From Acidimicrobiales bacterium (GTDB taxonomy: Bacteria; Actinomycetota; Acidimicrobiia; Acidimicrobiales; UBA8190), in assembly GCA_035531755.1 (NCBI GenBank), contig DATKSK010000007.1, positions 1 through 64,000 on the forward strand: a stretch of DNA of 64,000 bases, given 5' to 3'. The notes below the pieces were generated by a model, which was given only the letters and a program-made list of their open reading frames with translations, was not told where the DNA came from and searched no databases. Positions 25,176 to 45,093 of the stretch are shown in pieces. How positions within the stretch are numbered: the first letter of the stretch is position 1; every line of letters begins with the position of its first letter. Position numbers and translations under genes: made by a program.

Positions 25176-25178
25176 TCT
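25173..25178 (+). promoter_or_regulatory. -10 element before gcvT
   Basis: TAGTCT, which overlaps the stop codon of the preceding gene, ends six bases before GTG 25185. This spacing suits a leaderless gcvT transcript internal to the operon. Confidence 0.45.
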
Positions 25179-25184
25179 GACGGC

Positions 25185-26339: not shown

Positions 26340-27706
26340 GCGGCTACACCCCGCACACCTCGGCGGAGATCACCGCCATGCTCGGCTTCCTCGGGCTGAC
26401 GTCTGTCGACGAGCTGTTCGCCGTGGTCCCCGACGCCCTGCGCCTGGCCGGGGGACTGGACCTCGCCCCCGGGCTGCCCGAGCCCGACGTCGCCGACCGC
26501 ATGCAGGACCTGGCAGCCGCCAACCGGCCCTGCGGACGCGACCTGGTGTGCTTCGCCGGCGCCGGCGCCTACGACCACGAGGTCCCGCCGGTCACCCGGG
26601 CGCTGGCGTCGCGCTCGGAGTTCGTCACCTCCTACACGCCCTACCAGCCCGAGGTGGCCCAGGGCGTGCTCCAGGCGGTGTTCGAGTTCCAGACCCTCGT
26701 GAGCCGCCTGTCGGGCATGGCGATCTCGAACGCGTCGCTCTACGACGGCGCGGCCGCCCTCGTGGAGGCGGTGAACCTGGCCGTGGGCGCCACCGGGCGC
26801 CAGGACGTGTGGGTGTCGCACGGTGTCAACCCCACCTGGCGGGAGGTCCTCGTCACCTTCGCCACCGGCACCGGGCACCGCATCCGCGACATCCCCTTGC
26901 GCGGCGGTGCGACCGACTGGGCCGCCACCGTGTTCGACGACGCCGACGACCACCATGACGCCGACGGCCCCGGCGCCGTGGTGGTCGCCTACCCGAACTT
27001 CCTCGGGTGCCTGGAGGACCTCGCCGCGGCCCGCGCCCTGTGCGACCGCACCGGCGCCCTGCTGGTCGTGGCGTTCGACCCGGTGTGCGCCGGCATCCTG
27101 CGCGCCCCGGGGGACTGGGGCGCCGACGTCGTGGTGGGGGAGGGACAGGCCCTGGGCATGCCTCTGAGCTTCGGCGGCCCCTATCTGGGGCTGTTCGCCT
27201 GCACGGCCGACCACGTGCGCCGCCTGCCGGGCCGCCTCGTCGGCGAGACCGTCGACGCCGAGGGGCGGCGCGCCTACGTCACGACCCTGCGCGCCCGCGA
27301 GCAGGACATCCGGCGCGAGAAGGCGACGTCGAACGTCTGCACCAACCAGACGCTCATGGCCGTGACCGCCGCCATCCAGCTCGGCTGGCTCGGCACGTCG
27401 GGGATCGCCGAGATCGCCCTCCGCTCGGCGCGCGGCGCCCGCTACTGCCGACAGGGACTGCTCGCCGTGGCGGGCGTGGAGCCGCTCACCACGGCCCCGG
27501 TGGTGCGCGAGTTCGCCGTGCGCCTCCCGACCGGGGCCGAGCTCCTGGTGGAGCGCATGGTGGACGAGGGCTTCCTCGCCGGCGTGGCGCTCGACGACAG
27601 CTACAGCGACGGGCGCGCCGACGCCCTGCTCGTGGCCGTCACCGAGCGCCGCACGCGCGCCGAGATCGACGCCTTCGTCTCCGCGTTCGAGAAGGCCGTC
27701 CGCTGA
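26336..27706 (+). CDS. gcvPA: Glycine dehydrogenase (decarboxylating) subunit 1
   Basis: The 456-residue protein is the N-terminal half of a split P protein, with YTPHTSAEITAMLGFLG, FAGAGAYDHEVPPVTRAL, TSYTPYQPEVAQGVLQAVFEFQT and the closing KATSNVCTNQTLMA. It forms the complex with GcvPB that decarboxylates glycine and loads aminomethyl onto lipoyl-GcvH. ATG 26336 overlaps the gcvT stop and its own stop overlaps the gcvPB start, so the three are tightly coupled. Confidence 0.93.
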   Translation: MSGYTPHTSAEITAMLGFLGLTSVDELFAVVPDALRLAGGLDLAPGLPEPDVADRMQDLAAANRPCGRDLVCFAGAGAYDHEVPPVTRALASRSEFVTSYTPYQPEVAQGVLQAVFEFQTLVSRLSGMAISNASLYDGAAALVEAVNLAVGATGRQDVWVSHGVNPTWREVLVTFATGTGHRIRDIPLRGGATDWAATVFDDADDHHDADGPGAVVVAYPNFLGCLEDLAAARALCDRTGALLVVAFDPVCAGILRAPGDWGADVVVGEGQALGMPLSFGGPYLGLFACTADHVRRLPGRLVGETVDAEGRRAYVTTLRAREQDIRREKATSNVCTNQTLMAVTAAIQLGWLGTSGIAEIALRSARGARYCRQGLLAVAGVEPLTTAPVVREFAVRLPTGAELLVERMVDEGFLAGVALDDSYSDGRADALLVAVTERRTRAEIDAFVSAFEKAVR

Positions 27707-29253
27707 TGGTCGACGACCTCGTCCCCGGCCCGGCCGCCGGCGGCCGGGCCGCCAGCGCGCCGCTGCTCGGCCGCGACACCGAGCCCACGTTGTTCGAGCT
27801 CTCCGAGACCGGTCGCCGGGCGTGGCAGCTGCGCACCACCGACGTGCCCGAGGTGGCGCTCTGGGACCTCGTCCCCGAGGAGCACCGGCGCACGGGGCCC
27901 GTGCAGCTGGCCGAGGTCTCCGAGCGCGACCTGGTCGGCCACTTCACGCGACTGAGCCATCGCCAGTTCTCCGTCGACCTCGGGGCCTACCCGCTGGGCT
28001 CGTGCACCATGAAGTACAACCCGAAGGTGTGCGACGCCGTGGCCGCCCTGCCCGGCCTGGCCGACGTGCACCCGGCCGCTCCCGCCTCGTGCATCCAGGG
28101 CTGGCTCGAGCTCCTCGTCGAGCTGGAGGAGGCGCTGTGCGAGATCACCGGCATGGCGGCCGCCACCCTGCAGCCCGCCGCCGGCGCCGCCGGCGAGCTG
28201 ACCGGCCTGCTGCTCATGCGGGCCTGGCACGAGGCCAACGGCGAGCGACGGCACAAGGTCGTGATCCCGGACTCGGCCCACGGCACCAACCCGGCGTCGG
28301 TCACCCTGGGGGGGTTCGAGGTCGTGACCGTCCCGAGCGACGCCCGGGGCTGCGTCGACGTGGACGCGCTGCGGGCCGTGCTCGACGAGGACGTCGCCGG
28401 CATCATGCTGACCAACCCGAACACCCTGGGACTGTTCGAAGAGGACATCGTGGCCGTGGCCGACGCCGTGCACCACGTGGGGGGGCTCCTCTACTACGAC
28501 GGCGCCAACCTCAACGCCATCCTCGGCGTGGTGCGGCCCGGCGACATGGGCTTCGACATCGTGCACCTGAACCTGCACAAGACCTTCGCCACCCCGCACG
28601 GCGGCGGGGGGCCGGGCGCCGGGCCGGTGGCGGTGTCGCCGCGCCTGGCGCCGTTCCTCCCGGGCCCCCGGCCGACGCGCCTCGGCGACGCGTCGTCACC
28701 GCACTACGGCTGGTCGACGCCTCCCGATTCCATCGGCCGGATCCACTCCTGGCACGGCAATGCCCTCGTTCTCGCCCGCGCCCTCACCTACGTGCTCGTC
28801 CACGGCAGCGACGGCCTGCGCGAGGTGGCGCAGCTGGCGGTGCTCAACGCCAACTGGTTGCGGACGCGGCTGTCGGCCACGTTCGACGCCCCGTACGACC
28901 GCCCGTGCATGCACGAGTGCGTCCTGTCCGCCACGTCACTCAAGCGGGACACCGGCGTGCGGGCGCTCGACGTGGCCAAGCGCCTCCTCGAGGAGGGCTT
29001 CCACGCCCCGACCGTCTACTTCCCGCTCATCGTGGACGAGGCCCTCATGATCGAGCCCACCGAGACCGAGAGCCTCCAGACCCTGGAAGCGCTGGCCGCC
29101 GCCCTGGAGCGGATCGTGGCGGGCGCCGCCACCCCCGCGGGAGCGCTCGAGGCCACCGAGGCGCCGCACCTCACGCCGGTCCGCCGGGTCGACGAGGCGC
29201 GCGCCGCCCGCCACCTCGTCCCGACCTTCGACGCCCGCCCGCCCGCCACCTGA
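27706..29253 (+). CDS. gcvPB: Glycine dehydrogenase (decarboxylating) subunit 2
   Basis: The 515-residue C-terminal half of the P protein has the PLP-binding lysine in HLNLHKTFATPHGGGGPG and the conserved YPLGSCTMKYNPK and HGTNPAS. ATG 27706 shares one base with the gcvPA stop (TGATG). The gcvH gene for the lipoyl carrier is not in this window, so it must be elsewhere. Split gcvP is common in Firmicutes, Thermotogae and archaea, while most actinobacteria carry the fused form. Confidence 0.93.
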   Translation: MVDDLVPGPAAGGRAASAPLLGRDTEPTLFELSETGRRAWQLRTTDVPEVALWDLVPEEHRRTGPVQLAEVSERDLVGHFTRLSHRQFSVDLGAYPLGSCTMKYNPKVCDAVAALPGLADVHPAAPASCIQGWLELLVELEEALCEITGMAAATLQPAAGAAGELTGLLLMRAWHEANGERRHKVVIPDSAHGTNPASVTLGGFEVVTVPSDARGCVDVDALRAVLDEDVAGIMLTNPNTLGLFEEDIVAVADAVHHVGGLLYYDGANLNAILGVVRPGDMGFDIVHLNLHKTFATPHGGGGPGAGPVAVSPRLAPFLPGPRPTRLGDASSPHYGWSTPPDSIGRIHSWHGNALVLARALTYVLVHGSDGLREVAQLAVLNANWLRTRLSATFDAPYDRPCMHECVLSATSLKRDTGVRALDVAKRLLEEGFHAPTVYFPLIVDEALMIEPTETESLQTLEALAAALERIVAGAATPAGALEATEAPHLTPVRRVDEARAARHLVPTFDARPPAT

Positions 29254-29270
29254 CGGCGCCGGGCCGCGGC

Positions 29271-30461
29271 TCAGGACTCGGGGGAGGAGGCCGGCTCGCG
29301 CTGCGCGGCGCGCTCGGCCTGGTGGTCCGAGATGGCCTGCATGATGGCCCCCCCCACCGCGCCGATGAACTCGGGGCGGTTCTCCGCCGCCCAGTCCCGG
29401 GACCCCCGCAGCGACGCCAGGGTGCCCTTGAAGTGGGGCACGACCTCCCGGGCGAAGAGCTCGTAGGAGTGCAGAGTGGCCTCACGGTCGGCCCACTCGT
29501 GCGCCATGAGGAGGAAGGTGCCGAAGCCACCCGACTGCTCGACCAGGCGCTCGATCTGCGCAACGGCCATGGCCGGCGTCCCGATGATGGCGAAGCCCGT
29601 CTCCATGAGGGCATCGACCATCTTGTCGGGGTCGAGAGTCCCCGGTGCCAGGGGCAGGGCCGCCACCCGCTCGAAGTAGTCCACCCACTTCGCCAGGCCG
29701 AAGCGGACATCGGCGCGCGCCTGCTCCTCGGTCTCGGCGACGTGCATCGGCCCCACCAGTCGCCAGCGGCTCCGGTCGACGGTCGTGCCGAACTCGGCGG
29801 CACGCTCCTCCATCACCTGCCAGTGCGAGCCCAGCACGTCGAACCCGCCCGCGGAGGTGGCGCCGATCGACAGGAGCGACAACCCGAACCGGCCCGCGGC
29901 GCGCGGCCCCGCCGGCGAGATCTGCGCCGCCACAGCCACCTCGAACCGGGGATGGGTGTAGGGCCGCAGCTGCAGGCGGGCGTCGCGCAGCGTGAACCAC
30001 GACGCCTGGCGCGTCACGGGCTCCCCGCCGTCGAGCAGGGCCAGGATCGCCTCGAGCGACTCCTCCATCATGTCGCGCTGGTTCATGGGGTCGATGCCCA
30101 TCATGAAGGCGTCCGACGGCAGCGCGCCGGGGCCCACCCCGAACATGACCCGGCCACGCGTCAGGTGGTCGAGGAGCACCATGCGGTCCGCCAGGATGAG
30201 CGGATGGTGGTAGGGGAGGGAGCTCACCCCCGTGCCGAGGCGGATGTGCTCGGTCCGCTGCGACGCCACCGCGATGAACACCTCGGGCGAGGCGATGATC
30301 TCGTAGCCCGCCGAGTGGTGCTCGCCGAACCAGGCCTCGTCGAAGCCGAGCTGGTCGAGGCGGACCACCAGCTCCAGATCGCGCTCGAGCGCCAGGGTCG
30401 GGCTCTGTCCCACGGGGTGGAACGGGGCGAGGAAGATGCCGAAGTCGAGGGGCCGGTCCAT
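29271..30461 (-). CDS. LLM-class flavin-dependent monooxygenase
   Basis: The 396-residue protein has the luciferase-like TIM-barrel with FGIFLAPFHPVGQSPTLALERDLE, FDEAWFGEHHSAGYE, HHPLILADRMVLLDHLTRGR and GVGPGALPSDAFMMG. This pattern is typical of limonene-monooxygenase-like and related alkanal monooxygenases that use reduced FMN from a partner reductase. The substrate is unknown. TAGACT ends six bases before ATG 30461, suggesting a leaderless mRNA. It converges on gcvPB. Confidence 0.85.
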   Translation of the reverse strand: MDRPLDFGIFLAPFHPVGQSPTLALERDLELVVRLDQLGFDEAWFGEHHSAGYEIIASPEVFIAVASQRTEHIRLGTGVSSLPYHHPLILADRMVLLDHLTRGRVMFGVGPGALPSDAFMMGIDPMNQRDMMEESLEAILALLDGGEPVTRQASWFTLRDARLQLRPYTHPRFEVAVAAQISPAGPRAAGRFGLSLLSIGATSAGGFDVLGSHWQVMEERAAEFGTTVDRSRWRLVGPMHVAETEEQARADVRFGLAKWVDYFERVAALPLAPGTLDPDKMVDALMETGFAIIGTPAMAVAQIERLVEQSGGFGTFLLMAHEWADREATLHSYELFAREVVPHFKGTLASLRGSRDWAAENRPEFIGAVGGAIMQAISDHQAERAAQREPASSPES

Positions 30462-30495
30462 CCGCGAAGTCTACGACGGCCCGGCTGCACGCAGC

Positions 30496-30525
30496 CGGGC
30501 CGGATGGGATCGGGCCGGATGGGAT
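30496..30525. repeat. 15-bp direct tandem pair
   Basis: CGGGCCGGATGGGAT is present twice in succession (30496-30510 and 30511-30525), between the divergent starts of the LLM oxidoreductase and the small membrane ORF. Confidence 0.9.
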
Positions 30526-30528
30526 GAT

Positions 30529-30771
30529 GTGTGCGTGGTGCCGCCCGTCGTGGGTGAGGGCACGACGCGCCTCCCGACGTTCGTGCTGGGCGTGCTGGCG
30601 ATGCTGCTGGGCTTCGCCGTGATGGTCCGGTGCGCGGTCGTGCTGTTGGTGGACCTGGTGGCGAGCCCGGTCCGGATGGGCGCCGCGGCGGGCGCCCACT
30701 GGCTGTCGGCACCCGGCCGGCGGGGCCGCGTCGGCGACGGAGAGGCACGCCCCCGACAGCGTCCCCCATGA
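30529..30771 (+). CDS. Small hydrophobic membrane protein
   Basis: An 80-residue frame (GTG 30529; GTG 30535 and 30538 are alternatives) has one or two hydrophobic segments in LPTFVLGVLAMLLGFAVMV and the following AVVLLVDLVASPV, then a basic Arg-rich tail. The hydrophobic core with flanking charge looks like a genuine single-pass membrane protein. There is no clear Shine-Dalgarno sequence and no family match. It lies just after a 15-bp tandem pair and before the HTH gene at 30874. Confidence 0.4.
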   Translation: MCVVPPVVGEGTTRLPTFVLGVLAMLLGFAVMVRCAVVLLVDLVASPVRMGAAAGAHWLSAPGRRGRVGDGEARPRQRPP

Positions 30772-30860
30772 GCATCAGGGCCAGCGGGCCCGGGGCCGGG
30801 GGCCGATGATCCACATCGGGTCTCCTCCCGCCGGAGCCGTCCCGGGGCGGACAGATCGAC

Positions 30861-30866
30861 TATGAT
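30861..30866 (+). promoter_or_regulatory. -10 element for the HTH gene, leaderless
   Basis: TATGAT, the best -10 match in the region, ends seven bases before ATG 30874. An imperfect dyad centred on CCATGG (about 30865-30884) overlaps both -10 and start codon and could be an autoregulatory operator. Confidence 0.5.
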
Positions 30867-30873
30867 ATATACC

Positions 30874-31206
30874 ATGGCAGATATAGCCGGGAGTCGGCCG
30901 GCATCCGCGATCCGGGGAGTGCGGGGGCACGGCAGCCCGCCCCGGCGCCCGGCGCCCGGCCGCGGCGCTGATGCCCTCGCCCGCTACGAGCGCACCCGGA
31001 CCTCGATCATGGTCGGCAGCGCGGTGCGCGCCGCCCGCCTGCGTGCCGGGGTCAGCCAGACCGAGCTGGCGGCACGGGCGGGGACCAGCCAGCCGGCCAT
31101 CGCCCGCCTCGAGAAGGGGATGGTGTCGCCGACGGTGATCTCCCTGGACCGCATCGCCCGGGCCCTCGGCGCCGACCTCGTGATCGACTTCGAGCCCCAG
31201 CGCTGA
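30874..31206 (+). CDS. XRE-family HTH regulator
   Basis: The 110-residue protein has a disordered Arg/Pro/Gly-rich N-terminus (about 1-42) and a lambda-repressor-type HTH (about 49-100: AARLRAGVSQTELAARAGTSQPAIARLEKG, then SLDRIARALGADLVIDFEP). The fold and length resemble HigA-like antitoxins, but no toxin gene is adjacent. ATG 30874 is preferred to ATG 30862 because a TATGAT element lies seven bases upstream. A related HTH gene is at 34199. Confidence 0.75.
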   Translation: MADIAGSRPASAIRGVRGHGSPPRRPAPGRGADALARYERTRTSIMVGSAVRAARLRAGVSQTELAARAGTSQPAIARLEKGMVSPTVISLDRIARALGADLVIDFEPQR

Positions 31207-31320
31207 GAAGCCCGGCGCGTGCTTCCCCTCGGTTCGTCCGCGGGGGCGCACCCGGCCATCGGCCGACGAGGGCGAGGGAGCCCGCGGGGGTCCCCCGACA
31301 GCGCGTGCGGACCGGGGCGG

Positions 31321-32481
31321 CTACGACAGTGCGCCCAGCCCCAGCAGCCACGCCAGGTTGCCGGCGTAGAGCTGGTCGCCGGCGCGACCGTCCATCGGGC
31401 CGGCCACGCGTTCGTAGTCGGCCACAGGACGGGCGATACCCTCGGCGTGCGGATAGTCGCTCGAGAACATGAACATGTCCTCGCCGACCTCGTCCACCAG
31501 CCGGCGAGGATTCTCGTAGCAGAACGCCGCCACCCGGACGTGGCGCCGGATGAAGTCGCTCGGCCGCTGCTCGAGCCGTGCGAGGGGCCGGCCGTTGAAG
31601 CGGGCATGGAAGTCGAACCCTCCGTCCAGCATCACGAGGAACCACCCGACCCACACCGACGAGAGCTCCATCACCCCGATCTTCAGGTCCGGGTGCCGGG
31701 CGAACACGCCGTTGATCGTCAGGTCCGTGAGAGCGACCGCCGGCGCGCTCCAGATGAACACCGACGAGAGCACCGGGGCCACGGGGTCGGGGTCCGCCTC
31801 GTACCAGGCGTCGTGGAACGGCTGGGGAAAGGCGGCCACGTGGAACACCGGCACGATGCCGTGGTCCACGAACGCCGCCCAGGCGCGGTCGAGGTCGGGA
31901 TGCGACAACGGTCGTCCGTCGACGAGCGACGGCGCCATCATGGCCAGCCGCACGCCCGCGGCCGCCAGCGTGGCCAGCTCGTCCTCCAGCCAGTCGAGGG
32001 CGCGCAGCGTCACGTGCGCGACCGGGTACAGCCGACCGGCCGCGCCCCCGGCGACCTCGGCCGCCCACCGGTTCCACGCCCGCATGTTGGCCAAGGTCTC
32101 GGGCAGCCGGTCCTCGAGTGGCCGCTCCCACAGCAGCCCGTAGTTGGGGAACACCACGGACGCGTCCAGGCCGAAGTCGTCGAGCTGGCGGACACGGGCC
32201 TCGGGGTCCCAGAAACAGCGGGGGAGTGCCTCGTCGAAGGGGACGTCGGGTGGCTCGCCGCGTCGCACCCGTTCCCGGTAGGCGCCCATGGCGGTGACAT
32301 CTCCTGGATGGTGGATCTCGGCCAGGTGGACGCGCCTGCCTCCCTGGACCAGCCACGGGTGCCCGAGGTCGTCGTCGACGATCCCGATGGCGTGGTGGCG
32401 GTCGGTCGGGTCCATGTAGCGCACCCACAGGTCACGGGTCTCGTAGAGGTGCGTGTCGGCGTCGATCCTCGTCCGTCGCAC
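31321..32481 (-). CDS. Amidohydrolase-2 family metal-dependent hydrolase/decarboxylase
   Basis: The 386-residue protein belongs to the ACMSD-like amidohydrolase family. It opens with IDADTHLYE in place of the usual DXHXH, and has the typical middle HPDLDRAWAAFVDHGIVPVFHV and the C-terminal MFSSDYPHAEG with the catalytic aspartate. Such enzymes decarboxylate or hydrolyse aromatic acids. GTG 32481 is chosen because GGAGG lies eight bases upstream and the family starts near IDADTH; a GTG/ATG at 32733 would add unrelated residues. Confidence 0.75.
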   Translation of the reverse strand: MRRTRIDADTHLYETRDLWVRYMDPTDRHHAIGIVDDDLGHPWLVQGGRRVHLAEIHHPGDVTAMGAYRERVRRGEPPDVPFDEALPRCFWDPEARVRQLDDFGLDASVVFPNYGLLWERPLEDRLPETLANMRAWNRWAAEVAGGAAGRLYPVAHVTLRALDWLEDELATLAAAGVRLAMMAPSLVDGRPLSHPDLDRAWAAFVDHGIVPVFHVAAFPQPFHDAWYEADPDPVAPVLSSVFIWSAPAVALTDLTINGVFARHPDLKIGVMELSSVWVGWFLVMLDGGFDFHARFNGRPLARLEQRPSDFIRRHVRVAAFCYENPRRLVDEVGEDMFMFSSDYPHAEGIARPVADYERVAGPMDGRAGDQLYAGNLAWLLGLGALS

Positions 32482-32606
32482 CAGGTGTCCCTCCGTGTCC
32501 GGGGCGGTGCACCCGGGGGTCGGCACCCACGACCGCCACCGCCGACCGCGATCCTCGCGCCCGGCGGTGACTGCTGCACGCAGACGGGGCCGCCGCGGGG
32601 ATGCAC

Positions 32607-32612
32607 TACCGT
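32607..32612 (+). promoter_or_regulatory. -10 element before the lipoprotein gene
   Basis: TACCGT ends eight bases before ATG 32621, with no Shine-Dalgarno sequence, so transcription should begin at or next to the start codon. Confidence 0.45.
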
Positions 32613-32620
32613 GGACCCGG

Positions 32621-33370
32621 ATGCGCAAGACCGTCGTCGGGGTGGCCGTCACCCTCGTGGGGCTCACGGTCGGCGCCTGCGGGTCGTCGAGCACTGCGAC
32701 GCCCACTGCGCACGTCGGTGACCTGGCGGGCAAGACGCCGGCGCAGGTCCTGTCGGCGGCGGTCGCCGCGGCCCGGGCCCAGCGAACCGCCCATTACGTC
32801 ATGACCGCGCACAACGGCGGGCAGACCCAGACCATCAGTGGGGACGCCGGCCCCAGCGAGGGCCAGCAGACGGTCAAGCAGGGCACGCAGCAGATCAAGG
32901 TGGTCTACGTGGCGAGCGTCGCCTACGTCCAGGGCAACGCCGGCGGCCTGAGCTCGGTCATGGGCCTGAAGGCCGCCACCGCGAACACCTTCGCGGGGAA
33001 GTGGATCGCCATCCACAAGACCGACGGCGGTCTCTACAGCTCGATCGCCCAGAGCGTGACGCTGGTCAGCACCCTGACGCAGCTCGAGCCCAGCGGCAAC
33101 CTGACCCTGACCGGGCTCGCCACCGTCGCGGGGCGGCAGGTGATCGGCGTGCGCGGCGGGCTGCCCGGCCAGGCCCAGTCGGGGGTGACGGGGTCGGCCA
33201 CCTACTTCATCGCCACCACCCACCCCACGCTGCCGTTGCGCTTCAGTGGGCAGGTGAAGAGCGGCACGCAGTCGGCGCTCGACGACGGGTCGTTCAGCAA
33301 GTGGGGCGTTCCCCTGCACCTGAGCGCGCCGACGACGACGGTGCCGTTCTCGTCGATCCCCACGAGCTGA
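32621..33370 (+). CDS. Lipoprotein of unknown function
   Basis: The 249-residue protein has a short lipoprotein signal ending at the lipobox LTVGAC (Cys20), so it should be anchored outside the membrane. The rest is beta-rich with alternating polar residues (HYVMTAHNGGQTQTISGDAG, later TLTGLATVAGRQVIGVRG), similar in style to the LolA/LprG-like lipoproteins, but I cannot assign it to that family with confidence. Repeat copies lie between its stop and the clpP stop. Confidence 0.65.
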   Translation: MRKTVVGVAVTLVGLTVGACGSSSTATPTAHVGDLAGKTPAQVLSAAVAAARAQRTAHYVMTAHNGGQTQTISGDAGPSEGQQTVKQGTQQIKVVYVASVAYVQGNAGGLSSVMGLKAATANTFAGKWIAIHKTDGGLYSSIAQSVTLVSTLTQLEPSGNLTLTGLATVAGRQVIGVRGGLPGQAQSGVTGSATYFIATTHPTLPLRFSGQVKSGTQSALDDGSFSKWGVPLHLSAPTTTVPFSSIPTS

Positions 33371-33411
33371 CGGCCGCGGCCGTCGACGCCCGCCACGCTC
33401 CGGGTGCTGGT

Positions 33412-33466
33412 GACCGGTGCCGTCAGACCCGTGCAACAGACCGGTGCGGTCAGACCGGTGCGTTCA
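33412..33466. repeat. Three near-identical 14-bp repeats ending in the clpP stop
   Basis: GACCGGTGCCGTCA (33412-33425), GACCGGTGCGGTCA (33439-33452) and GACCGGTGCGTTCA (33453-33466) differ by one or two bases. The last contains the clpP stop codon (33464-33466, minus strand). Confidence 0.85.
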
Positions 33467-34096
33467 GACGGCGGCGGCCGCCGGCAGGGGAGCGGCGAGC
33501 CCGCGGCGGGGGAGGATGATGTCGTCGATGAGGCCGTAGTCCATCGCCTCGTGCGCCGTCATGAAGTAGTCGCGGTCGAGGTCCTGCTCGACCTGCTCGA
33601 GCGGGCGCCCGGAGTGATGGGCGATGACCTCGGCCATGCGGCGCGTCATCGACAACACCTCGCGCAGTTGGATCTCCATGTCGCGCGGCGCGCCGCGGGT
33701 CCCCGCGGAGCCCTGGTGGATCATGATCTTGGCGCTCGGGAGCGCCAGGCGCTTCCCGGGAGCGCCGCCGCACAGCACCATGGCGGCCGCCGACATGCCC
33801 ATGCCGACGCACACCGTCGACACGTCGGGGCGGATGTGCTGCATCACGTCGTAGATCGCCATGCCCGCGTACGCCAGGCCGCCGGGGGAGTTGACGTACA
33901 GCGAGATGTCCTTCTCCGGGTCCTCGGCCTCCAGGTACAGCAGCTCGGCGATGATGAGGTTGGCGATCTGGTCGTCGACCTCCTGGCCGAGGAACACGAT
34001 CCGCTCGCGCAGGAGCAACGAGTAGATGTCGAAGGCGCGCTCGCCGCGGGCCGACGACTCGAGCACGGTGGGGATGACCGACTGGAACGGGGCCAC
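33464..34096 (-). CDS. clpP: ATP-dependent Clp protease proteolytic subunit (active)
   Basis: The 210-residue protein is a full ClpP with the catalytic triad intact: Ser102 in [11 protein letters not shown], His127 in KIMIHQG and Asp176 in [19 protein letters not shown] supplies the oxyanion loop. It degrades proteins fed by ClpX or ClpC as part of a 14-mer. GTG 34096 has AGGAGG six bases upstream. It is divergent from an HTH regulator followed by a catalytically dead ClpP paralogue, an arrangement like the clpP3-clpP4/PopR system of Streptomyces. Confidence 0.93.
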
Positions 34097-34130
34097 GGGA
34101 TTCCTCCTCCTCGTCGCGGGTGGGCCCCAC

Positions 34131-34152
34131 GATATCTCATTTGCGAGATATC
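34131..34152. promoter_or_regulatory. Perfect palindromic operator at the clpP/HTH divergent promoter
   Basis: Arms GATATCTC and GAGATATC are exact inverted copies around the 6-base spacer ATTTGC. The right arm overlaps the -35 element of the plus-strand promoter. Such a perfect AT-containing dyad in GC-rich DNA, next to an XRE gene, is very likely that regulator's binding site. Confidence 0.75.
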
Positions 34153-34168
34153 ACATTCGAGCTATGCT
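34141..34168 (+). promoter_or_regulatory. Promoter of the HTH-ClpP-like operon
   Basis: TTGCGA (34141-34146) and TATGCT (34163-34168) are separated by 16 bp and lie 31 bases before GTG 34199. The operator overlaps the -35, fitting repression by occlusion. Confidence 0.55.
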
Positions 34169-34198
34169 GGCCTCGGGCGTGGGGCACGAGGAGGTCCC

Positions 34199-34462
34199 GT
34201 GACGGCGCGTCGACATGAACCGGTGTTCCCCGGGTTCCGGGAGATGGCGCAGCGGCGCAAGGACCTCAGCGCCGAGCTGGTGACCAGGCGCCGGGCCATC
34301 GGTCTGTCGCAGACCCAGGTGGCGGCTCGCATGGGCACGTCCCAGTCCGCCGTGGCCCGGCTCGAAGCGGGGGAGGCCGACGTCCGGCTCTCCACCCTGG
34401 AGCGCTACGCCGAGGCCGTCGGCCTCGAGCTCGATTGGCAGCTGGGGGCGCCCCGACCATGA
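34199..34462 (+). CDS. XRE-family HTH regulator of the ClpP locus
   Basis: The 87-residue protein is essentially one HTH domain (SAELVTRRRAIGLSQTQVAARMGTS, then ARLEAGEADVRLSTLERYAEAVGLELDW). GTG 34199 follows GAGGAGG; ATG 34243 is a shorter option. Its ATGA overlap with the following ClpP-like gene and the palindrome at 34131-34152 suggest it controls both divergent clpP transcripts. PopR, which controls clpP3-clpP4 in Streptomyces, is a functional parallel; orthology is not established. Confidence 0.8.
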   Translation: MTARRHEPVFPGFREMAQRRKDLSAELVTRRRAIGLSQTQVAARMGTSQSAVARLEAGEADVRLSTLERYAEAVGLELDWQLGAPRP

Positions 34463-35076
34463 CCGTGCCACCGGGCCCGGACGGCCGCGACGCCCCGTGG
34501 CGCCGGACGGCCCGTGACCAGCTCTTCGACCAGCGCGTCGTCTTCCTGTGGGGCCCGCTCGACGACGCCCACGCGGGGCAGCTGGCGGCCGAGCTCATGA
34601 CCCTCGACGCCACCGGCGACGACCCGGTGCACCTCCACGTCGACAGCCCGGGCGGCTCCCTGGAGGCCGCCTTCTGCGTCATGGACGTCATCGACCTGCT
34701 GGGGGTGGAGGTCACGGCCACGTGTGTCGGCCAGGCGGCCGGGACCGCCATCGGCCCTCTGGCCGTGGCCCATCACCGCCGGGCCACCCCGCACGCCCGC
34801 TTCCGGCTGTCGGAGCCCGTCCTGGCCCACACGGGCACCTCGACGGACCTGGCGTCGTGGGCGGCCAGCCAGCACGACCAGTTCCGGCGGTTCTGCGAGC
34901 GGGTGGCGGCGGCGGTCGGGGGGGCACCGGAGGAGCTGGCGCGGGACCTGTCGAGCGGCCGTTCCCTCGACGCCGACGAGGCCCGCCGGTACGGCCTCGT
35001 GGACGAGATCTGCGGCCCGGTGGCACGCGTGTACCCGATGCCCGGCCGCCCGCTCGGCTTTCGCTCCCGGTCCTGA
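34459..35076 (+). CDS. ClpP-like protein lacking the catalytic triad
   Basis: The 205-residue protein has the ClpP fold (FDQRVVFLWGPLDDAHAGQL, VDSPGGSLEAAF, ARRYGLVDEI), but all three catalytic positions are replaced. GQAAGTAIG has Gly95 for the serine, RFRLSEP has Ser118 for the histidine, and LSSGRSLDADEA has Gly167 for the aspartate. It cannot act as a serine protease and is probably a structural or regulatory partner, as ClpR subunits are in cyanobacteria and plastids. Its start overlaps the HTH stop (ATGA), so both are made together. Confidence 0.88.
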   Translation: MTVPPGPDGRDAPWRRTARDQLFDQRVVFLWGPLDDAHAGQLAAELMTLDATGDDPVHLHVDSPGGSLEAAFCVMDVIDLLGVEVTATCVGQAAGTAIGPLAVAHHRRATPHARFRLSEPVLAHTGTSTDLASWAASQHDQFRRFCERVAAAVGGAPEELARDLSSGRSLDADEARRYGLVDEICGPVARVYPMPGRPLGFRSRS

Positions 35077-35176
35077 CCGCCGCGGTGCGGGGGGGCGGGC
35101 CGAGGGCCCGGGCAACCCCTCTCGGCTCGACGACGCGACGACGACCCGTCATTTCGTGCCGGATTCGTGCCTAGTA

Positions 35177-35204
35177 ACTTTACATAAGATACATTATCGG
35201 CGGT
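35177..35204 (-). other. dif: Chromosomal dif-like site (XerC/XerD recombination)
   Basis: Read on the minus strand this is ACCGCCGATAA, then TGTATC, then TTATGTAAAGT: the 11-6-11 layout of bacterial dif sites. The inner arms (CGATAA and TTATGT) and the central TGTAT match E. coli dif (GCATAA, TGTATA, TTATGT), and CCGATAA with TTATG..AAGT matches the actinobacterial form I recall. It sits in a 236-bp intergenic gap as an AT-rich island. XerC/XerD would resolve chromosome dimers here during division, so this marks the replication terminus region. Confidence 0.85.
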
Positions 35205-35312
35205 TCTGTGGGAGCAGCCGGCGTGAATCATCGGTGCGCCGATGTGCTGTTCCCACCGGCCTCCGGGGGCCGCCCCCGGGCCCCCGGGCCCTCGGCCCCG
35301 TGCAGCCGCGTG

Positions 35313-36026
35313 TCAGCTCGTGGCGAGATGCGCCCCGAACCACGCCAGGGTGCGCTGCCAGGCATCGGTGGCGGCGTCTTGCTTGTAGTCCGGACGGGCG
35401 TCGCAATGGAACCCGTGGCCGGCCTCCGGGTAGCGCACGATGTCGGTGTCCACGGGTGCGGCGGCCACGGCGGCACGCAGCTTCTCGACGTCCTCGACGG
35501 GGATCCCCTTGTCCTCGTCCCCGTACAGGCCGAGCCACGGGGCCTGCAGGTCGGCGGCCAGGTCGAGCTGGGACGCCATGCCGAAACGCCCCTCGGCGAT
35601 GCCCCCGCCGTAGAAGGTCACGGCGGCCCCCACCCCGCGGCGCACCGCCACCAGGAAGGCCACCGTCCCGCCCATGCAGAAGCCGACCACCCCGGTCCGG
35701 GAGGGACCGAACCCGGCCTCGTGCAGATAGCCGAGGGCGGCGTCGACGTCGTTGAGGAGCCCCTCCTCGGACAGCCCCTGGAAGTGCGGCATCAGCTTGT
35801 CGAAGTCCCCGTAGCCCAGCACGGGGTCGCCGGTGCGGTGGAAGAGGTGCGGGGCCACGGCCCGGTAGCCGGCCGCCGCGAAGCGCCGGGTGACGGCCTC
35901 GATGTGATGGTTCACCCCGAAGGCCTCCTGCACCACGACGACCGCGCCGCGTGCCTCGCCGTCGGGCTCGACGTCGTACAGCCCCATGTCGCCGTCCGCA
36001 GTCGCCAATGTCACCGTCGTCGCCAT
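35313..36026 (-). CDS. Dienelactone hydrolase family protein
   Basis: The 237-residue alpha/beta hydrolase has the dienelactone hydrolase nucleophile motif GFCMGG with cysteine, the acid in GLYGDEDKGIP and the histidine in GHGFHCDARPDY. FGVNHHIEAVTRRFAAAGYRAVAPHLF is typical of the family. It should hydrolyse lactone or ester substrates in aromatic-compound breakdown; the substrate is not determinable. ATG 36026 has GAGGAGG four bases upstream; the in-frame start at 36056 adds ten residues without a better site. Confidence 0.85.
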   Translation of the reverse strand: MATTVTLATADGDMGLYDVEPDGEARGAVVVVQEAFGVNHHIEAVTRRFAAAGYRAVAPHLFHRTGDPVLGYGDFDKLMPHFQGLSEEGLLNDVDAALGYLHEAGFGPSRTGVVGFCMGGTVAFLVAVRRGVGAAVTFYGGGIAEGRFGMASQLDLAADLQAPWLGLYGDEDKGIPVEDVEKLRAAVAAAPVDTDIVRYPEAGHGFHCDARPDYKQDAATDAWQRTLAWFGAHLATS

Positions 36027-36381
36027 CGACCCTCCTCGCCGTTGTGCCCGCGCCAAGGCTTCCCACGTGCACGCGCCGACCGACCCACGATCACGTACCC
36101 CTACGAAGGCTCGGCCAGCTCCTGGTCCATGGAGTCGAGCACCGACCCGACGAGGAGCCGACGACGAACCGGGTCCAGCGTCGGTTCGACAGCGTCCTCG
36201 CCCACACGCACACGGTACTCAGTGCCGGGGGACCCACATCGACCCACCACGCGTGTCCGGACGGACATATCATAATTGGTATTCCCTGCTGTCCGCTCCC
36301 CGGGGGCGCCCTCGGCACCGCGCCACGCCCCTCCCCCAGGGCCGGCGCCACCGCGCTCCTCGGTGGCTTAATCTGCCCGCG
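36027..36381. other. Intergenic stretch with an AT-rich patch
   Basis: No gene is supported. An isolated AT-rich patch at 36266-36287 contains TATGAT on the minus strand and CATAAT on the plus strand, either of which could be a -10. No -35 at the right distance is convincing. The TAATCT element for the next gene is at 36369-36374. Confidence 0.4.
36369..36374 (+). promoter_or_regulatory. -10 element, leaderless start
   Basis: TAATCT ends seven bases before ATG 36382, and no Shine-Dalgarno sequence is present. Confidence 0.5.
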
Positions 36382-37188
36382 ATGGCCACCGCCGTCTTCC
36401 TCCACGCCCACCCCGACGACGAGGCGATCCAGACGGGCGGCACCATGGCCCGCATGGCAGCCGACGGCCACCGGGTCGTCCTCATCACGGCCACCCGGGG
36501 GGAGCTCGGCGAGGTCCCCGACGGGCTGCTGGCGTCCGGTGAGACCCTGGCCGAGCGCCGGGCCCGGGAGCTGGCGGCGTCCTGCGACGTGCTGGGGGTG
36601 GCCCGCCACGAGTACCTCGGCTACGGCGACTCGGGGATGGTCGGTGAGCCCACCAACGAAGACCCGGCGTGCTTCTGGCGGGCCGACATCGACGAGGCCG
36701 CGGCTCGCCTGGCCGCCATCCTCGACGACGAGCGCGCCGACGTGCTCGCCACCTACGACGAGAACGGCGGGTACGGCCACCCCGATCACATCCAGGCGCA
36801 CCGCGTCGGGCTGCGGGCTGCGGAGATGGCGGGGACCTCGCGCGTGTTCATGGCCACGATCAACCGCGACTACCTGCTCGAGCTGGCCGGGCGCGCCGAC
36901 GAGATCGGCCTGCCGATGCCCGACGAGCAGCGCGACTTCCTGCACACCCTGGGCGTGCGCGGCCACCGGATCACCACCGAGGTGGACGTGAGCGGCTTCC
37001 TCGACCGCAAGCGCCGGGCCATGGAGGTCCATGCCAGCCAGATCGGTGACACCTCGTTCTTCCTGAGCATGCCGCCCGAGGCCTTCGCCGCGGTGTGGGG
37101 CACCGAGTGGTACGTCAGGGTCGGCGCCGTGGCGCCCCGGGGCGCCGCGCACCTCGAGGACTCGCTCCTCGGCCCGGCCCAGGGCTGA
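36382..37188 (+). CDS. PIG-L deacetylase, Mca-like (mycothiol S-conjugate amidase type)
   Basis: The 268-residue protein has the zinc motif HAHPDDE near residue 9, the signature TATRGELGEVPDGL and YDENGGYGHPDHIQAHRVG. These features, and the length, match the Mca/MshB branch that cleaves GlcNAc-inositol amides in mycothiol metabolism. Mca-type detoxification amidase or MshB deacetylase cannot be separated from sequence alone. Its stop overlaps the start of a DUF664/DinB gene, a family that uses mycothiol as a cofactor, which strengthens the assignment. Confidence 0.8.
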   Translation: MATAVFLHAHPDDEAIQTGGTMARMAADGHRVVLITATRGELGEVPDGLLASGETLAERRARELAASCDVLGVARHEYLGYGDSGMVGEPTNEDPACFWRADIDEAAARLAAILDDERADVLATYDENGGYGHPDHIQAHRVGLRAAEMAGTSRVFMATINRDYLLELAGRADEIGLPMPDEQRDFLHTLGVRGHRITTEVDVSGFLDRKRRAMEVHASQIGDTSFFLSMPPEAFAAVWGTEWYVRVGAVAPRGAAHLEDSLLGPAQG

Positions 37189-37682
37189 TGGCGCCCGGCG
37201 GCGACGGCGACGGCGCCAACGCGCCGGGCATCGTCGCCGGGGAGCGCGACACCCAGCTGGCCTTCCTGCGCTATCTGCGCGCCGGCGTCGACCGCAAGCT
37301 CGAGGGACTGTCCGACGACGACGCCCGGCGCGCCCTCGTGCCCTCGGGCACCACCCTGCTGGGGCTGGCCAAGCACCTGGCTTTCGTCGAGGTGTACTGG
37401 GCGCAGCGGCGCTTCCTGGGGGCGCAGATCACCACCGACGGCGACGGGTTCGCGCTCGCCGACGACGACACCGTGGCCTCGGTGCGCCGCGCCTACGCAG
37501 AGGCCGCCCGACGCACCGACGACATCGTGGAGGCCTGCGACGACCTGGACCGGCCACTCGCCCGCGGCAGCCACGGCCTCACCCTGCGCTGGATGCTCGC
37601 CCATCTGGTGGAGGAGACGGGGCGCCACGCCGGGCACGCCGACATCCTGCGCGAGCTGCTCGACGGGGCCACGGGCCGCTGA
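37188..37682 (+). CDS. DUF664/DinB-fold protein, possible mycothiol-dependent transferase
   Basis: The 164-residue four-helix protein has the DinB metal histidines in LGLAKHLAFVEVYW and WMLAHLVEETGRHAGHADILREL. DUF664 members of this fold are mycothiol-dependent enzymes in actinobacteria. ATG 37188 shares one base with the upstream stop (TGATG), so the pair is co-translated. Two 16-bp direct repeats (37690-37705 and 37711-37726) lie just past the stop. Confidence 0.8.
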   Translation: MAPGGDGDGANAPGIVAGERDTQLAFLRYLRAGVDRKLEGLSDDDARRALVPSGTTLLGLAKHLAFVEVYWAQRRFLGAQITTDGDGFALADDDTVASVRRAYAEAARRTDDIVEACDDLDRPLARGSHGLTLRWMLAHLVEETGRHAGHADILRELLDGATGR

Positions 37683-37764
37683 CGGCCGCTCCCCCGCCGG
37701 CCGCCTCCGTTCCCCCGCCGGCCGCCCCGGTCCCCCCCGACGCGACGGCACCGCCGCCGTGGCG

Positions 37765-39351
37765 TCAGCTGGCGGGGGCCAGCGCCAACGTCGCCGTCAC
37801 GGTGAACTTCTGCTGGCCGCGGTAGATGGTGACCTTCACCTGGCGCCCCGACGCCGAGGCCTGCACGTCGTTGGTGAGCTCCTGGGCCGACCCCACCGCC
37901 TTGCCGTTGAACGCCACGACGACGTCGCCGGTCTTGATGCCGGCCGAGTCCGCCGGCGAGCCGGTCACCACCGACACCACCAGCGCGCCCGACGCCGGCA
38001 CGAGCCCGTAGGCCTGCTGCTGCTGGGGCGTCTCGTCGGTCACCTCGACGCCGAGGTAGGGCTTCGACACGCCGGCGGTGCCCCCGCTGCGCAGGGTGCC
38101 GAGCAGGCCCTGGATGGTCGACGAGGGGATGGCGAAACCGATGTTCTGCGCCGGCGCGTTGCCCGTGCTCGACGAGGCGACCGCCGTGTTCATGCCCACC
38201 ACCTGTCCCGCCGAGTCGACCAGGGGCCCACCGGAATTGCCCGAGTTGATGGCGGCGTCGGTCTGGATCATGTTGTGCAGCGTCTCGCCCGAGGTGCCCG
38301 TGTCGCCGGCCTGCACCGTGCGCCCGAGAGCCGAGACGATCCCCGACGTGACCGTGGGCGTGCCCGCCGACAGGCCGAGGGCGTTGCCGATGGCGATGAC
38401 GGCGTCGCCGACCTGGAGCTTGGTGGAGTCCCCGAACGTCACCGCCTGGAGGTCGGCCGGCGGCGAGTCGATCTTGAGCAGGGCCACGTCGCTCGAGGGG
38501 TCGGCGCCCACGAGCGTGGCCGGCAGCGCGGTGGTCTGGCCGTAGAGGTTGACCGTGATGGTGGTGGCGCCCGAGATCACGTGGTTGTTGGTGACCACCT
38601 CGCCGGTGGTGGTGATGATCATCCCCGTCCCCTGGTCCTCGACCGGGCCGGCGCCGAAGAGCGCACCCCCGGAGGTTCCCGGGCCCTTGGCGTCGATGGA
38701 GACCACCTCGGGCAGGACGCTCTTCACGATCGTGGGGATCTGGGCGCCCCCGGCGAGCGCCGGCCCCGGCGACACCTGGCCGACCTTGACGGTGGGGGCG
38801 GGGCCGGAATTGCCGTTCCCCGTCCCGACGGCCTCGGCGATGCCCGCCCCGGCGGCCCCGCCGACGAGCGCGGCCACCACGGCGACCACCACCCATGACG
38901 GGGTGCGGCGCGCCGCCGGTGCCGGCGGCGCCGCCGGCGGCGCCCCCCAGGGCGTTCCCGGCATCGGGGGCGCGCCCGGCGTGACGGGAGGGACGCCCGG
39001 CGGCGGCCACCCCGGCGCCGGGGGCGCGTCGGCGGCCCGCCACACCGGGACGGTCGGGGTCTCGGCGGTGGGCGAGGCCCACGGTGTCGCGGGTGGGGCC
39101 GCGGGCGGCGTCCACGGTCCGCCCGGCACGGCCACGGGGGCGACGGCGGCGCCCGGTGCGCCCCCGGGCGTGGGCGGGGTCGGGGCGGGCGGCGACGCGG
39201 CGGGGGTGCCCTGCGCCGGCGCCCACTGCCCGGCCTGGCCGGGGATGGTCACGGGGGCGTCGAGGTGGCCTGTGGTGTCACCGAGCGCAGGGGGTGGGAC
39301 GGGCGTCGACTCGGTGCCGTGGGCCGCATCGTCCTCGCGCCTGTCGTCCAC
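37765..39351 (-). CDS. HtrA-like membrane-anchored serine protease with PDZ domain
   Basis: The 528-residue protein has a Pro/Ala/Gly-rich cytoplasmic N-terminus (about 1-145), one membrane helix (about 150-170), a trypsin-like domain and a PDZ domain (about 440-525). The catalytic residues are His in VVTNNHVI, Asp in SSDVALLK and Ser in GNSGGPLV. It degrades or senses misfolded exported proteins. GTG 39351 has AGGAG upstream (GACAGGAGCGCGATC). A TAGTCT at 39409-39414 (minus) is a candidate -10. Confidence 0.9.
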   Translation of the reverse strand: MDDRREDDAAHGTESTPVPPPALGDTTGHLDAPVTIPGQAGQWAPAQGTPAASPPAPTPPTPGGAPGAAVAPVAVPGGPWTPPAAPPATPWASPTAETPTVPVWRAADAPPAPGWPPPGVPPVTPGAPPMPGTPWGAPPAAPPAPAARRTPSWVVVAVVAALVGGAAGAGIAEAVGTGNGNSGPAPTVKVGQVSPGPALAGGAQIPTIVKSVLPEVVSIDAKGPGTSGGALFGAGPVEDQGTGMIITTTGEVVTNNHVISGATTITVNLYGQTTALPATLVGADPSSDVALLKIDSPPADLQAVTFGDSTKLQVGDAVIAIGNALGLSAGTPTVTSGIVSALGRTVQAGDTGTSGETLHNMIQTDAAINSGNSGGPLVDSAGQVVGMNTAVASSSTGNAPAQNIGFAIPSSTIQGLLGTLRSGGTAGVSKPYLGVEVTDETPQQQQAYGLVPASGALVVSVVTGSPADSAGIKTGDVVVAFNGKAVGSAQELTNDVQASASGRQVKVTIYRGQQKFTVTATLALAPAS

Positions 39352-39550
39352 GATCGCGCTCCTGTCCTCGGGCCGGGAATCGCCCGACCGGGCCCCTCGC
39401 CACCCGTCAGACTAGGGAACCGCTGCGGTCGATCGGGCGGGATTGGCCATATTCTCAGAACCTCCACAGCATCCGGACGACCTCGCGCCGGCGCTCTCAC
39501 CCAGCAGGGTTCTCACGGTGTCGGCGCCGACGGTAGCGTGGGCGACCGGC

Positions 39551-40927
39551 ATGTCTCGCAGAATCGACATCGAGCTCACCAGCAGCCGTGACGACGGCAC
39601 GTGGACCTGGCGCGCCCCGGGGGCTCGCCAGCCGCGCGGAGCGCTCGACGGAGCCCTCCTCCCCGACGGCGCCAAGGTCGGCGACGTCCTGCGGGCCGAC
39701 GCCGACTTCGACCTCGAGGGCATCGTCGTGACGTCCGTGCTGGCGCCCAAGGCCGAGGCGCGCCCCGAGCGCGTGGCGCGCATCGAGATCATCGGCTCCG
39801 GGCGCGACGCCGCGCCGGGCGGTGTCTCGGTGGTGCTGGCCCCCGGCGGGCGGCGGCGCGACGAGGGCGAGCGCGGGGCCCGCCCCCGGCGCGGCGGCCC
39901 GTCGCGCGGCCGCGAGGGACGCGGGGACGGCCACGACGGCGCCGGTCGCGACGACCAGCGCGGCCGCGGGCGCGACCTACCGGGCGCCCGCCCCGCACGC
40001 GAGGGCGGCGCGCCCCGTGGGGAGCGTGCCCCACGACCCGACGGGGCGGCGCGCGGCGACCGGCCCGAGCGCGGCGCCCGGCCCGAGCGCGGCGACCGGC
40101 CCGAGCGAGCCGGAGCCGGCGGTCGACCCGCTCGACCCGGGCGCGACGACCGGACGCGCCGGCTCCAGGTGGTGTCGACCAACCGCAACGCCGCGCTGGC
40201 CGAGCTGCGCCCCGAGCAGCTGCCGGTGGCGGAGCAGCTCCTGCGCGGCGGCATCCCCGCCGTCCGCCATGCCATCGAGGAGCAGAACGCCCGCGCCCGC
40301 TCCGAGGGGCGCGCCGAAGTGTCGCCCGAGCCCCTCCTCACCATGGCCGAGGAGCTCCTGCCTCGGATGAACCTGGCCGCGTGGAAGGACCGGGCCGTCG
40401 CCGCGCGCAATGCCGGCAAGGACGCCCCGCTGCGCGAGGTCCGCTCCGTGGTGGCGTCGGCGTCCACCGTCAGCCTCGACGACGAGGGCCGCGAGATGGT
40501 CGGCGCGCTGCGCGAGGCGCTCCAGGCCCGCGTCACGGCGCTGCGCGACGGATGGCTGGCGCGCATCGTCGCCGCCCTCGACGACGGGCGGGTGGCGGAC
40601 GCGCTGCGCGTGTCGTCGCGCCCGCCCGAGCCCGCCGCCCGCGTGCCGGCGGAACTGGCCGTGCGCCTGGCCGAGGCCGCCGGCGGCGCCATGGCGCCCG
40701 GGCTCTCGGAGGCGGACTGGCTGGCACTGCTCGACGCCGTCGTCGACTCCCCCGTGCGGCGCACCGTGAAACCGGCGGGGCTCCCCGAGGGCGCCGGCGA
40801 GGAACTCCGTGTCGCGGCGCGACGCGCCGCCGGCATCGTGCCCGAGGTGGCCCGCCTGCTCGGGCTCCCGATCCCCCCGCCGCCCGGACCCCGACGGCCG
40901 ACGGCGTCCGGCGTCCGCGGGTCGTGA
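39551..40927 (+). CDS. Uncharacterised protein with a long Arg/Gly-rich linker
   Basis: The 458-residue protein has three parts: a small beta-rich N-terminus (about 1-85, with MSRRIDIELTSSRDDGTWTW and VGDVLRADADFDLEG), a disordered RG/RPERG-rich linker (about 95-205, with tandem PERGDR units), and an alpha-helical C-terminus (about 210-450). The N-terminus looks like an OB-type domain and the linker like RNA-binding RG tracts, so a nucleic-acid role is a reasonable guess, not a finding. TAGCGT lies 11 bases before ATG 39551. I do not recognise the family. Confidence 0.65.
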   Translation: MSRRIDIELTSSRDDGTWTWRAPGARQPRGALDGALLPDGAKVGDVLRADADFDLEGIVVTSVLAPKAEARPERVARIEIIGSGRDAAPGGVSVVLAPGGRRRDEGERGARPRRGGPSRGREGRGDGHDGAGRDDQRGRGRDLPGARPAREGGAPRGERAPRPDGAARGDRPERGARPERGDRPERAGAGGRPARPGRDDRTRRLQVVSTNRNAALAELRPEQLPVAEQLLRGGIPAVRHAIEEQNARARSEGRAEVSPEPLLTMAEELLPRMNLAAWKDRAVAARNAGKDAPLREVRSVVASASTVSLDDEGREMVGALREALQARVTALRDGWLARIVAALDDGRVADALRVSSRPPEPAARVPAELAVRLAEAAGGAMAPGLSEADWLALLDAVVDSPVRRTVKPAGLPEGAGEELRVAARRAAGIVPEVARLLGLPIPPPPGPRRPTASGVRGS

Positions 40928-40957
40928 CCCGGCAGGCCTGACGGCCCGACGCGGGGG

Positions 40958-41380
40958 TCAGTCCAGGACGCCGTGCGCCCGGAGGAACTCCTCGAGCCCG
41001 TCCACGAGCGCCACCGCGGGCACCTCCGCCAGCGCTACCCACGCCACCGCGGCGGCGTCGTCCCCGGCGACCGGCGCGGGCGCGTCGCTCGGCACGTCGA
41101 CCACGAAGTCGAGGATGACGAAGTGGTGGTCGGGCCCGATGCGCTCGACCCACCCGAGCATGGGCCCGCAGCGCACCACCACGCCCGTCTCCTCACGGAC
41201 CTCGCGCTCGACGGCGGCGGCGAGCGCCTCACCGGGCTCCACCCGTCCGCCCGGCACCGTCCAGCGGCCGGCCTGGGGGGGGTTCGCCCGCTGCACCAGC
41301 AGGAGCCGGCGCTCGACGACCGCTACTCCCCCGACGGCCACCACCGGCCCCGCCCCCGACCCGGCCGGGGCGACGGGCAT
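40958..41380 (-). CDS. Nudix hydrolase
   Basis: The 140-residue protein carries a complete Nudix box, GGRVEPGEALAAAVEREVREETG, with the metal-binding REVREE core. Such enzymes hydrolyse nucleoside diphosphates linked to another moiety; the ADP-ribose/NUDT15-like branch is plausible but not certain. ATG 41380 begins two bases after the GNAT stop, implying coupling. Confidence 0.9.
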   Translation of the reverse strand: MPVAPAGSGAGPVVAVGGVAVVERRLLLVQRANPPQAGRWTVPGGRVEPGEALAAAVEREVREETGVVVRCGPMLGWVERIGPDHHFVILDFVVDVPSDAPAPVAGDDAAAVAWVALAEVPAVALVDGLEEFLRAHGVLD

Positions 41381-41382
41381 CG

Positions 41383-41859
41383 TCACCCCAAGAGCCGGTG
41401 CATCGTGATGAGGCGCGCCTTGAACCCGGCCGCCTCGAAGAAGCCCTTGGTCGACCGGTCGCCGGGCAGCGCGCTGGCGTCGACCCCCCGGCAGCCCGAC
41501 GCCGTGAACCACGCCACGAGGGCGTCGAGCAGCGCCCGGCCCACGCCCACGCCGCGGGCACCCGCCGCCACGAAGCATCCGTCGACGATCCCGATGGAGG
41601 CCTCCCCCACGGGGTCCACCCGCCCGGTCGCCAGCCCCACCACGACATCGTCGATGGTCCCCACGAGCACCTGGCGACGGGGGTCGGCGAGCAGCCGGTC
41701 GAGCCCCCCCGGCCGCAGCAGCGCCTTGGCCAACAGGCCGCTCTCACGCCGCACGAAGAGCGCACCCCCGCGGGCCTCCTGGAGCTCGTGGAGCGCCTCG
41801 CGGCACAGCTCCGCGCAGCGGTCCCCGTCGTGGCGCGCCGCCGGGCGAGTCGCCTCCAC
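41383..41859 (-). CDS. GNAT-family N-acetyltransferase
   Basis: The 158-residue protein has the acetyl-CoA motif A as GARGVGVGRALLDALVAW and motif B as GFFEAAGFKARL. It should transfer an acetyl group to a small molecule or protein amine. GTG 41859 starts 21 bases after the upstream gene's stop, and its own stop is two bases before the Nudix start, so the three genes read as one unit. Confidence 0.85.
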   Translation of the reverse strand: MEATRPAARHDGDRCAELCREALHELQEARGGALFVRRESGLLAKALLRPGGLDRLLADPRRQVLVGTIDDVVVGLATGRVDPVGEASIGIVDGCFVAAGARGVGVGRALLDALVAWFTASGCRGVDASALPGDRSTKGFFEAAGFKARLITMHRLLG

Positions 41860-41880
41860 GGACCCCCGCCTCGCGCCGGC

Positions 41881-42432
41881 CTAGGGCTGCGCGCCGTCCG
41901 CCCCGGTGAGCAGCTGCTCGACGCGGTGCAGGATGGTGCGCCGGTGGCGGTGGGTGGCCTCGTACGCACGCACGTCCTCGAGCTCACCGGGCGACAACCC
42001 TTCGAGGCGCTGCACCACCTGCGAGGCCGACAGGCTGTCGTAGCCGGGGATGGCGAGCGAGGGCGGCGGGCCGCTGCCGTTGACGGGCACGTGCCCCGGC
42101 GCGTGGTCCGGCGCACCGGGCCCGGGGGGAGGCACCGGTGCCTCGGCGGAGCGCGCCGGCGGCTCGGGCTCAGGTCGCGACACGGCGCCCGTGTCGCTCC
42201 CCGCCGCGCCGCGCCGCTCTCCGAGCTTCCCGAGTGTCTGCTCCACCTGGCGCCGGCCCATCTGGAACGCGACCTGCCCGACGAGGCGGGCGGTGTGCAC
42301 CTGGCCCTCCAGGCGATGCCGGCCCTTCTCGACGAGCCCGGGGAATTCCTCGACGACGGTGACGGCCAGCCCGGCGGGGCCGAAGACCACCAGCTCGAGC
42401 AGGCGCTCCTTCGGGGACCGCTGCCCGGTCAC
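41881..42432 (-). CDS. Uncharacterised actinobacterial protein
   Basis: The 183-residue protein has an N-terminal helical segment (KERLLELVVFGPAGLAVTVVEEFPGLVEKGRHRLEGQV), a Pro/Ala-rich linker (about 85-125) and a C-terminal helical module PGYDSLSASQVVQRLEGLSPGEL..YEATHRHRRTILHRVEQLL. The C-terminal module recurs in actinobacterial proteins of unknown function. No membrane helix or catalytic motif is present. GTG 42432 has a G-rich stretch just upstream. Function unknown. Confidence 0.6.
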   Translation of the reverse strand: MTGQRSPKERLLELVVFGPAGLAVTVVEEFPGLVEKGRHRLEGQVHTARLVGQVAFQMGRRQVEQTLGKLGERRGAAGSDTGAVSRPEPEPPARSAEAPVPPPGPGAPDHAPGHVPVNGSGPPPSLAIPGYDSLSASQVVQRLEGLSPGELEDVRAYEATHRHRRTILHRVEQLLTGADGAQP

Positions 42433-42472
42433 CGTCCGCCCCCCTGCGGCCGGGCCGGGTCCGGGGCCACCG

Positions 42473-42952
42473 TCAGACGCAGTCGCGGCACATCCCCTTC
42501 TCCGGATCGGCCAGCTGGCTGGAGTGTTTGACCAGGAAGCAGGAGCTGCACACGAACTCGTCGGGCTGCTTGGGGAGGACCCGCTCGGAGATCTCGGAGC
42601 GGTCGTCGGGCTCGGCGACCTCCTCGTCCTCGGCCTCCTCCTCCTCGACGACCAGGCGTTCCTTGAGGATCTCGTCGAGGCTGGCCTCGACGTCCTCGTC
42701 GTCGACCTCCTCTTCCTCCTCCTCGCCCTCCTCGGGGACGACGGCGACCGGGACGGCGGTGGGCTCGACGGCATCGGCGTCCTCGGTGTCGACGTCCGCG
42801 CCGATGGCGTCGTCGTCGTCCTCGTCGACGAGGGCCTCGTCGAGGTCGTCCTCGTCGAGCTCCTCGTCGATCAGCTCCTCGTCGGCGAGGTCGTCGAGCT
42901 CCACGGCTTCGAGCTCGTCGGGCTCCGCCACGTCATCCAAATCGTCGGCCAT
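42473..42952 (-). CDS. DUF4193 acidic zinc-ribbon protein
   Basis: The 159-residue protein has a very long Asp/Glu-rich stretch (about 1-120) and a C-terminal zinc ribbon with CSSC near residue 134 and CRDC at the end, flanked by FVCSSCFLVKHSSQLA. This matches DUF4193, an actinobacterial family of unknown role. The acidic part is much longer than usual for the family. It lies 40 bases upstream of the 42432 gene on the same strand. Confidence 0.85.
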   Translation of the reverse strand: MADDLDDVAEPDELEAVELDDLADEELIDEELDEDDLDEALVDEDDDDAIGADVDTEDADAVEPTAVPVAVVPEEGEEEEEEVDDEDVEASLDEILKERLVVEEEEAEDEEVAEPDDRSEISERVLPKQPDEFVCSSCFLVKHSSQLADPEKGMCRDCV

Positions 42953-45080: not shown

Positions 45081-45093
45081 GGCCCCGGCAACA

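Follow-up and report, generated by a model that had tools for sequence, protein, structure and literature searches.

The dif site suggested for Frankia alni, CACGCCGATAATGCACATTATGTCAAGT (PMC3025954), and the 28-mer described here agree at 22 of 28 positions. Both sequences have an 11-6-11 layout and share CGCCGATAA and TTATGT-AAGT arms, whereas they differ in the spacer (TGTATC here, TGCACA in Frankia), in the outer two bases (AC here, CA in Frankia) and in the XerD arm, which has an A here and a C in Frankia. With the dif site of Escherichia coli, on which XerC, XerD and FtsK act, our 28-mer has in common the layout, the ATAA-TGTAT-TTATGT core and its occurrence as a single copy at the terminus, but the outer arm bases are not the same. 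In Corynebacterium aurimucosum, dif was located by means of the octamers G(A/T/C)GGGGGA and (T/C)GGGGGAG (PMC2830990). The same octamers, with a strand bias towards dif like that of the architecture-imparting sequences of Corynebacterium (PMC2830990), emerged here without prior input, although in another order or class of Actinomycetota and with a weaker bias.

The window analyzed here is a 64 kb stretch of DNA that begins at the first position of contig C7 in the draft genome of an uncultured Acidimicrobiales-like actinobacterium. We conclude that the 28-mer in this window is almost certainly the chromosomal dif, where both replichores join.

Results

The 28-mer reads ACTTTACATAA GATACA TTATCGGCGGT on the plus strand and ACCGCCGATAA TGTATC TTATGTAAAGT on the minus strand. 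It conforms to the dif consensus of 28 bp with two 11-bp arms flanking a 6-bp spacer, and both the layout and the letters are exactly those given in a sequence-only reading of this DNA. The 236-bp intergenic gap named in that reading was confirmed as positions 35077-35312; it is bordered by the ClpP-like ORF, which ends at 35076, and by the minus-strand ORF of a dienelactone hydrolase-family (DLH) protein, whose stop codon reaches 35313. Coordinates are collected in Table 1.

Table 1. Features at and around the 28-mer, in window coordinates
Feature	Position	Strand	Basis or remark
dif site (assignment almost certain), 28 bp	35177..35204	-	Single genome copy, kept in relatives, polarity switch
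Presumed XerC-binding arm, ACCGCCGATAA	35194..35204	-	Analogy with E. coli dif and conserved place in core
Central spacer TGTATC, 6 bp	35188..35193	-	Layout
Presumed XerD-binding arm, TTATGTAAAGT	35177..35187	-	Analogy with E. coli dif and conservation
Replichore left of dif	1..35176	+	GGGGGAG 12 forward, 2 reverse, aimed at dif
Replichore right of dif	35205..64000, on to contig end 122748	-	GGGGGAG 7 forward, 41 reverse (rest of contig), aimed at dif
clpP	33464-34096	-	Active-looking, head to head with ClpP-like gene
Small XRE-type helix-turn-helix protein	34151-34462	+	Between both ClpP-family genes
ClpP-like gene	34435-35076	+	Pfam PF00574, 99 bits
DLH gene	35313-36056	-	

The sequence-only reading had proposed a search of the genome for further copies. 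With as many as 3 mismatches allowed, one match to the 28-mer and none to a reversed-pattern control were found in the entire draft genome (3,276,893 bp in 77 contigs, 96% complete), as expected of an element present once per chromosome. Within the window the same threshold again gave one match, compared to none in 100 dinucleotide shuffles.

To follow the site in 60 relatives, we searched for its 21-bp inner core, leaving the spacer free and allowing up to 2 mismatches. Exactly one match was found in 15 of the 16 genomes of the same family; the remaining one, G006, which is 89% complete, had no match at this threshold. In other families of the order, most matching genomes carried a single match. 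A few genomes showed many matches to both the core pattern and its reversed control, and we therefore regard most of those as chance. Alignment of the loci revealed that the conserved block is the 28-mer itself, roughly ACTT(T/G)ACATAA - N6 - TT(A/C)T(C/G)GGCGN, with the TGTATC spacer region as the most variable part of the core. The flanks outside the 28-mer are unrelated, even among genomes of the same family, and the core is kept within differing gene contexts. Conservation that stops at the edges of the 28-mer is characteristic of a short element recognized by a protein and not of a gene.

Three complete or near-complete relatives show where the equivalent site lies relative to dnaA, at about 49-51% of the chromosome and thus opposite oriC. 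In G018 (one contig, 4,576,919 bp) the site, at 2,320,402, is 50.7% away from dnaA at 225; in G022 (one contig, 4,775,416 bp) the site is at 2,225,811 and dnaA at 4,679,819, a distance of 51.4%; and in G027 (~2.4 Mb, two contigs) dnaA and the site are on one contig, ~1.19 Mb apart. In our own draft genome dnaA is on contig C15 and the 28-mer on C7, so that the placement opposite dnaA is taken from these relatives.

Cumulative GC skew was the check put forward in the sequence-only reading for the whole chromosome. In our own contig it has no turning point at the 28-mer, the skew being too weak here. It is near zero and erratic, with no usable signal, both in this contig and in the stretches sampled from G018 and G022, 20 from each. 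Because the skew in this lineage amounts to noise and the assembly consists of 77 contigs, we used oligomer polarity instead. We ranked k-mers de novo by how strongly they favor the leading strand in G018 and G022; the division of these chromosomes between ori and dif was the only information used. The most biased 7-mer was GGGGGAG (141/31 and 78/4, respectively) and the top octamers were CGGGGGAG and TGGGGGAG. Unlike in E. coli, the FtsK-orienting sequence here looks like GGGGGAG. The E. coli-type KOPS GGGNAGGG showed no clear bias in G018 and G022 (116/103 and 34/22), nor did the B. subtilis-type GAGAAGGG.

We then examined the motif in our own contig, i.e., the window and the remaining 58.7 kb, which had played no part in choosing it. 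GGGGGAG points predominantly towards the 28-mer from either side (counts in Table 1; Fisher p 1.6e-6), which makes the site a convergence point of strand-biased octamers of the FtsK-orienting type and bears out the earlier proposal that the window spans the terminus. The best change-point interval is 36.5-37.7 kb (log-likelihood -25.53; null -38.2), and a near-equal second interval, 34.4-36.3 kb (-25.68), contains dif at 35.19 kb. In eight relatives we counted the motif over up to 20 kb to either side of the equivalent site; 117 GGGGGAG copies face towards it and 7 away. These eight include the two genomes from which the motif was chosen; without G018 and G022, the six others have 75 copies towards the site and 5 away. 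Gene-strand bias was considered as a source of this skew. By a rough gene call, gene strands are near-balanced around dif (16/13 on the left, 23/28 on the right), and on the right side the motif is as biased in plus-strand as in minus-strand genes (15 and 15). The octamer bias therefore does not come from the direction of transcription, and this explanation was ruled out. As a replichore marker, GGGGGAG performed far better than GC skew in G018, G022 and C7, and it could serve to orient draft actinobacterial contigs.

Xer-exploiting integrative elements are generally known to bear dif-like half sites, and the 28-mer might accordingly be the attachment site of such an element (an IMEX or a plasmid-type Xer site) and not chromosomal dif. 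We consider this very improbable. There is one site in the genome, and hence no flanking duplicate, and contig C7 has no match to the XerD recombinase family; on these two grounds we rejected an integrative-element origin. In addition, the neighbors are clpP, the ClpP-like gene, DLH and PIG-L, relatives keep the core in other gene contexts, and GGGGGAG polarity switches at the 28-mer. That an AT-rich stretch beside gene ends in an intergenic gap has come to resemble dif by chance, or is the operator dyad of a regulator, as the partial palindromy of the dif arms might suggest, is less credible still and is refuted by once-per-genome conservation despite differing flanks and by the coincidence with the replichore boundary, in addition to the empty shuffles, in line with the earlier judgment that a chance origin is very unlikely.

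The preferred reading, chromosomal dif, calls for matching host machinery, and the genome encodes all three components: XerC, XerD and a gamma-domain FtsK. XerD scores 330.2 bits, above the cut-off. The XerC-like recombinase has XerC as its best family with 274 bits, under the equivalog cut-off of 335 bits. By reading, both proteins have the motifs H.LRH and GH...Y, as active tyrosine recombinases should. A single FtsK gamma domain is encoded (91 bits). Close to a contig end (G000:C41:60673-61557) lies a third Xer-like tyrosine recombinase, which scores 207 bits to XerD and is probably a mobile-element recombinase.

The genes next to the 28-mer have features of their own. In the ClpP paralogue, the catalytic Ser is replaced by Gly and the His by Ser, and both residues are missing in all 11 of 11 aligned homologues. 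The paralogue adjoins an active-looking clpP in most of the Acidimicrobiales-like loci examined, and judged by its sequence it is apparently a conserved, inactive, ClpR-like subunit. The lineage is Acidimicrobiales-like, judged by the named relatives closest to the neighboring ClpP, most of which are records of Acidimicrobiales, Acidimicrobiaceae and Acidiferrimicrobium. An ORF similar to the helix-turn-helix gene, noticed by reading, lies at 30862-31206.

Discussion

The sequence-only reading had called the 28-mer a probable chromosomal dif marking the terminus. Its single copy, the core in 15/16 family genomes, the position opposite dnaA in three relatives, the polarity switch and the Xer and FtsK genes all support that proposal.

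Binding, recombination and FtsK dependence at this dif are predicted by homology, as is the role of GGGGGAG as the putative FtsK-orienting sequence. In the mechanism suggested by homology and anatomy, an odd number of crossovers would leave sister chromosomes fused. FtsK at the septum would then be guided to dif by polar octamers of the GGGGGAG type and would activate XerD through its gamma domain, upon which XerC and XerD would recombine two dif copies over the 6-bp spacer and restore monomers.

Since the site is Frankia-like and the octamers are of the Corynebacterium type, site and guide sequences are both of a known kind. The 28-mer is a well-supported, ordinary instance of a well-known element and adds no new Xer biology. 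We lean slightly towards the view that a dif of the ACTT(T/G)ACATAA type together with a GGGGGAG octamer guide is common to Acidimicrobiales and Corynebacterium, in which case the terminus-guiding system would be ancestral to much of Actinomycetota.

For this organism, dif fixes the replication terminus of the genome precisely, and contig C7 is thereby oriented within the chromosome. For draft genomes of high-GC actinobacteria in which GC skew fails, the GGGGGAG-polarity test is a means of locating the terminus.
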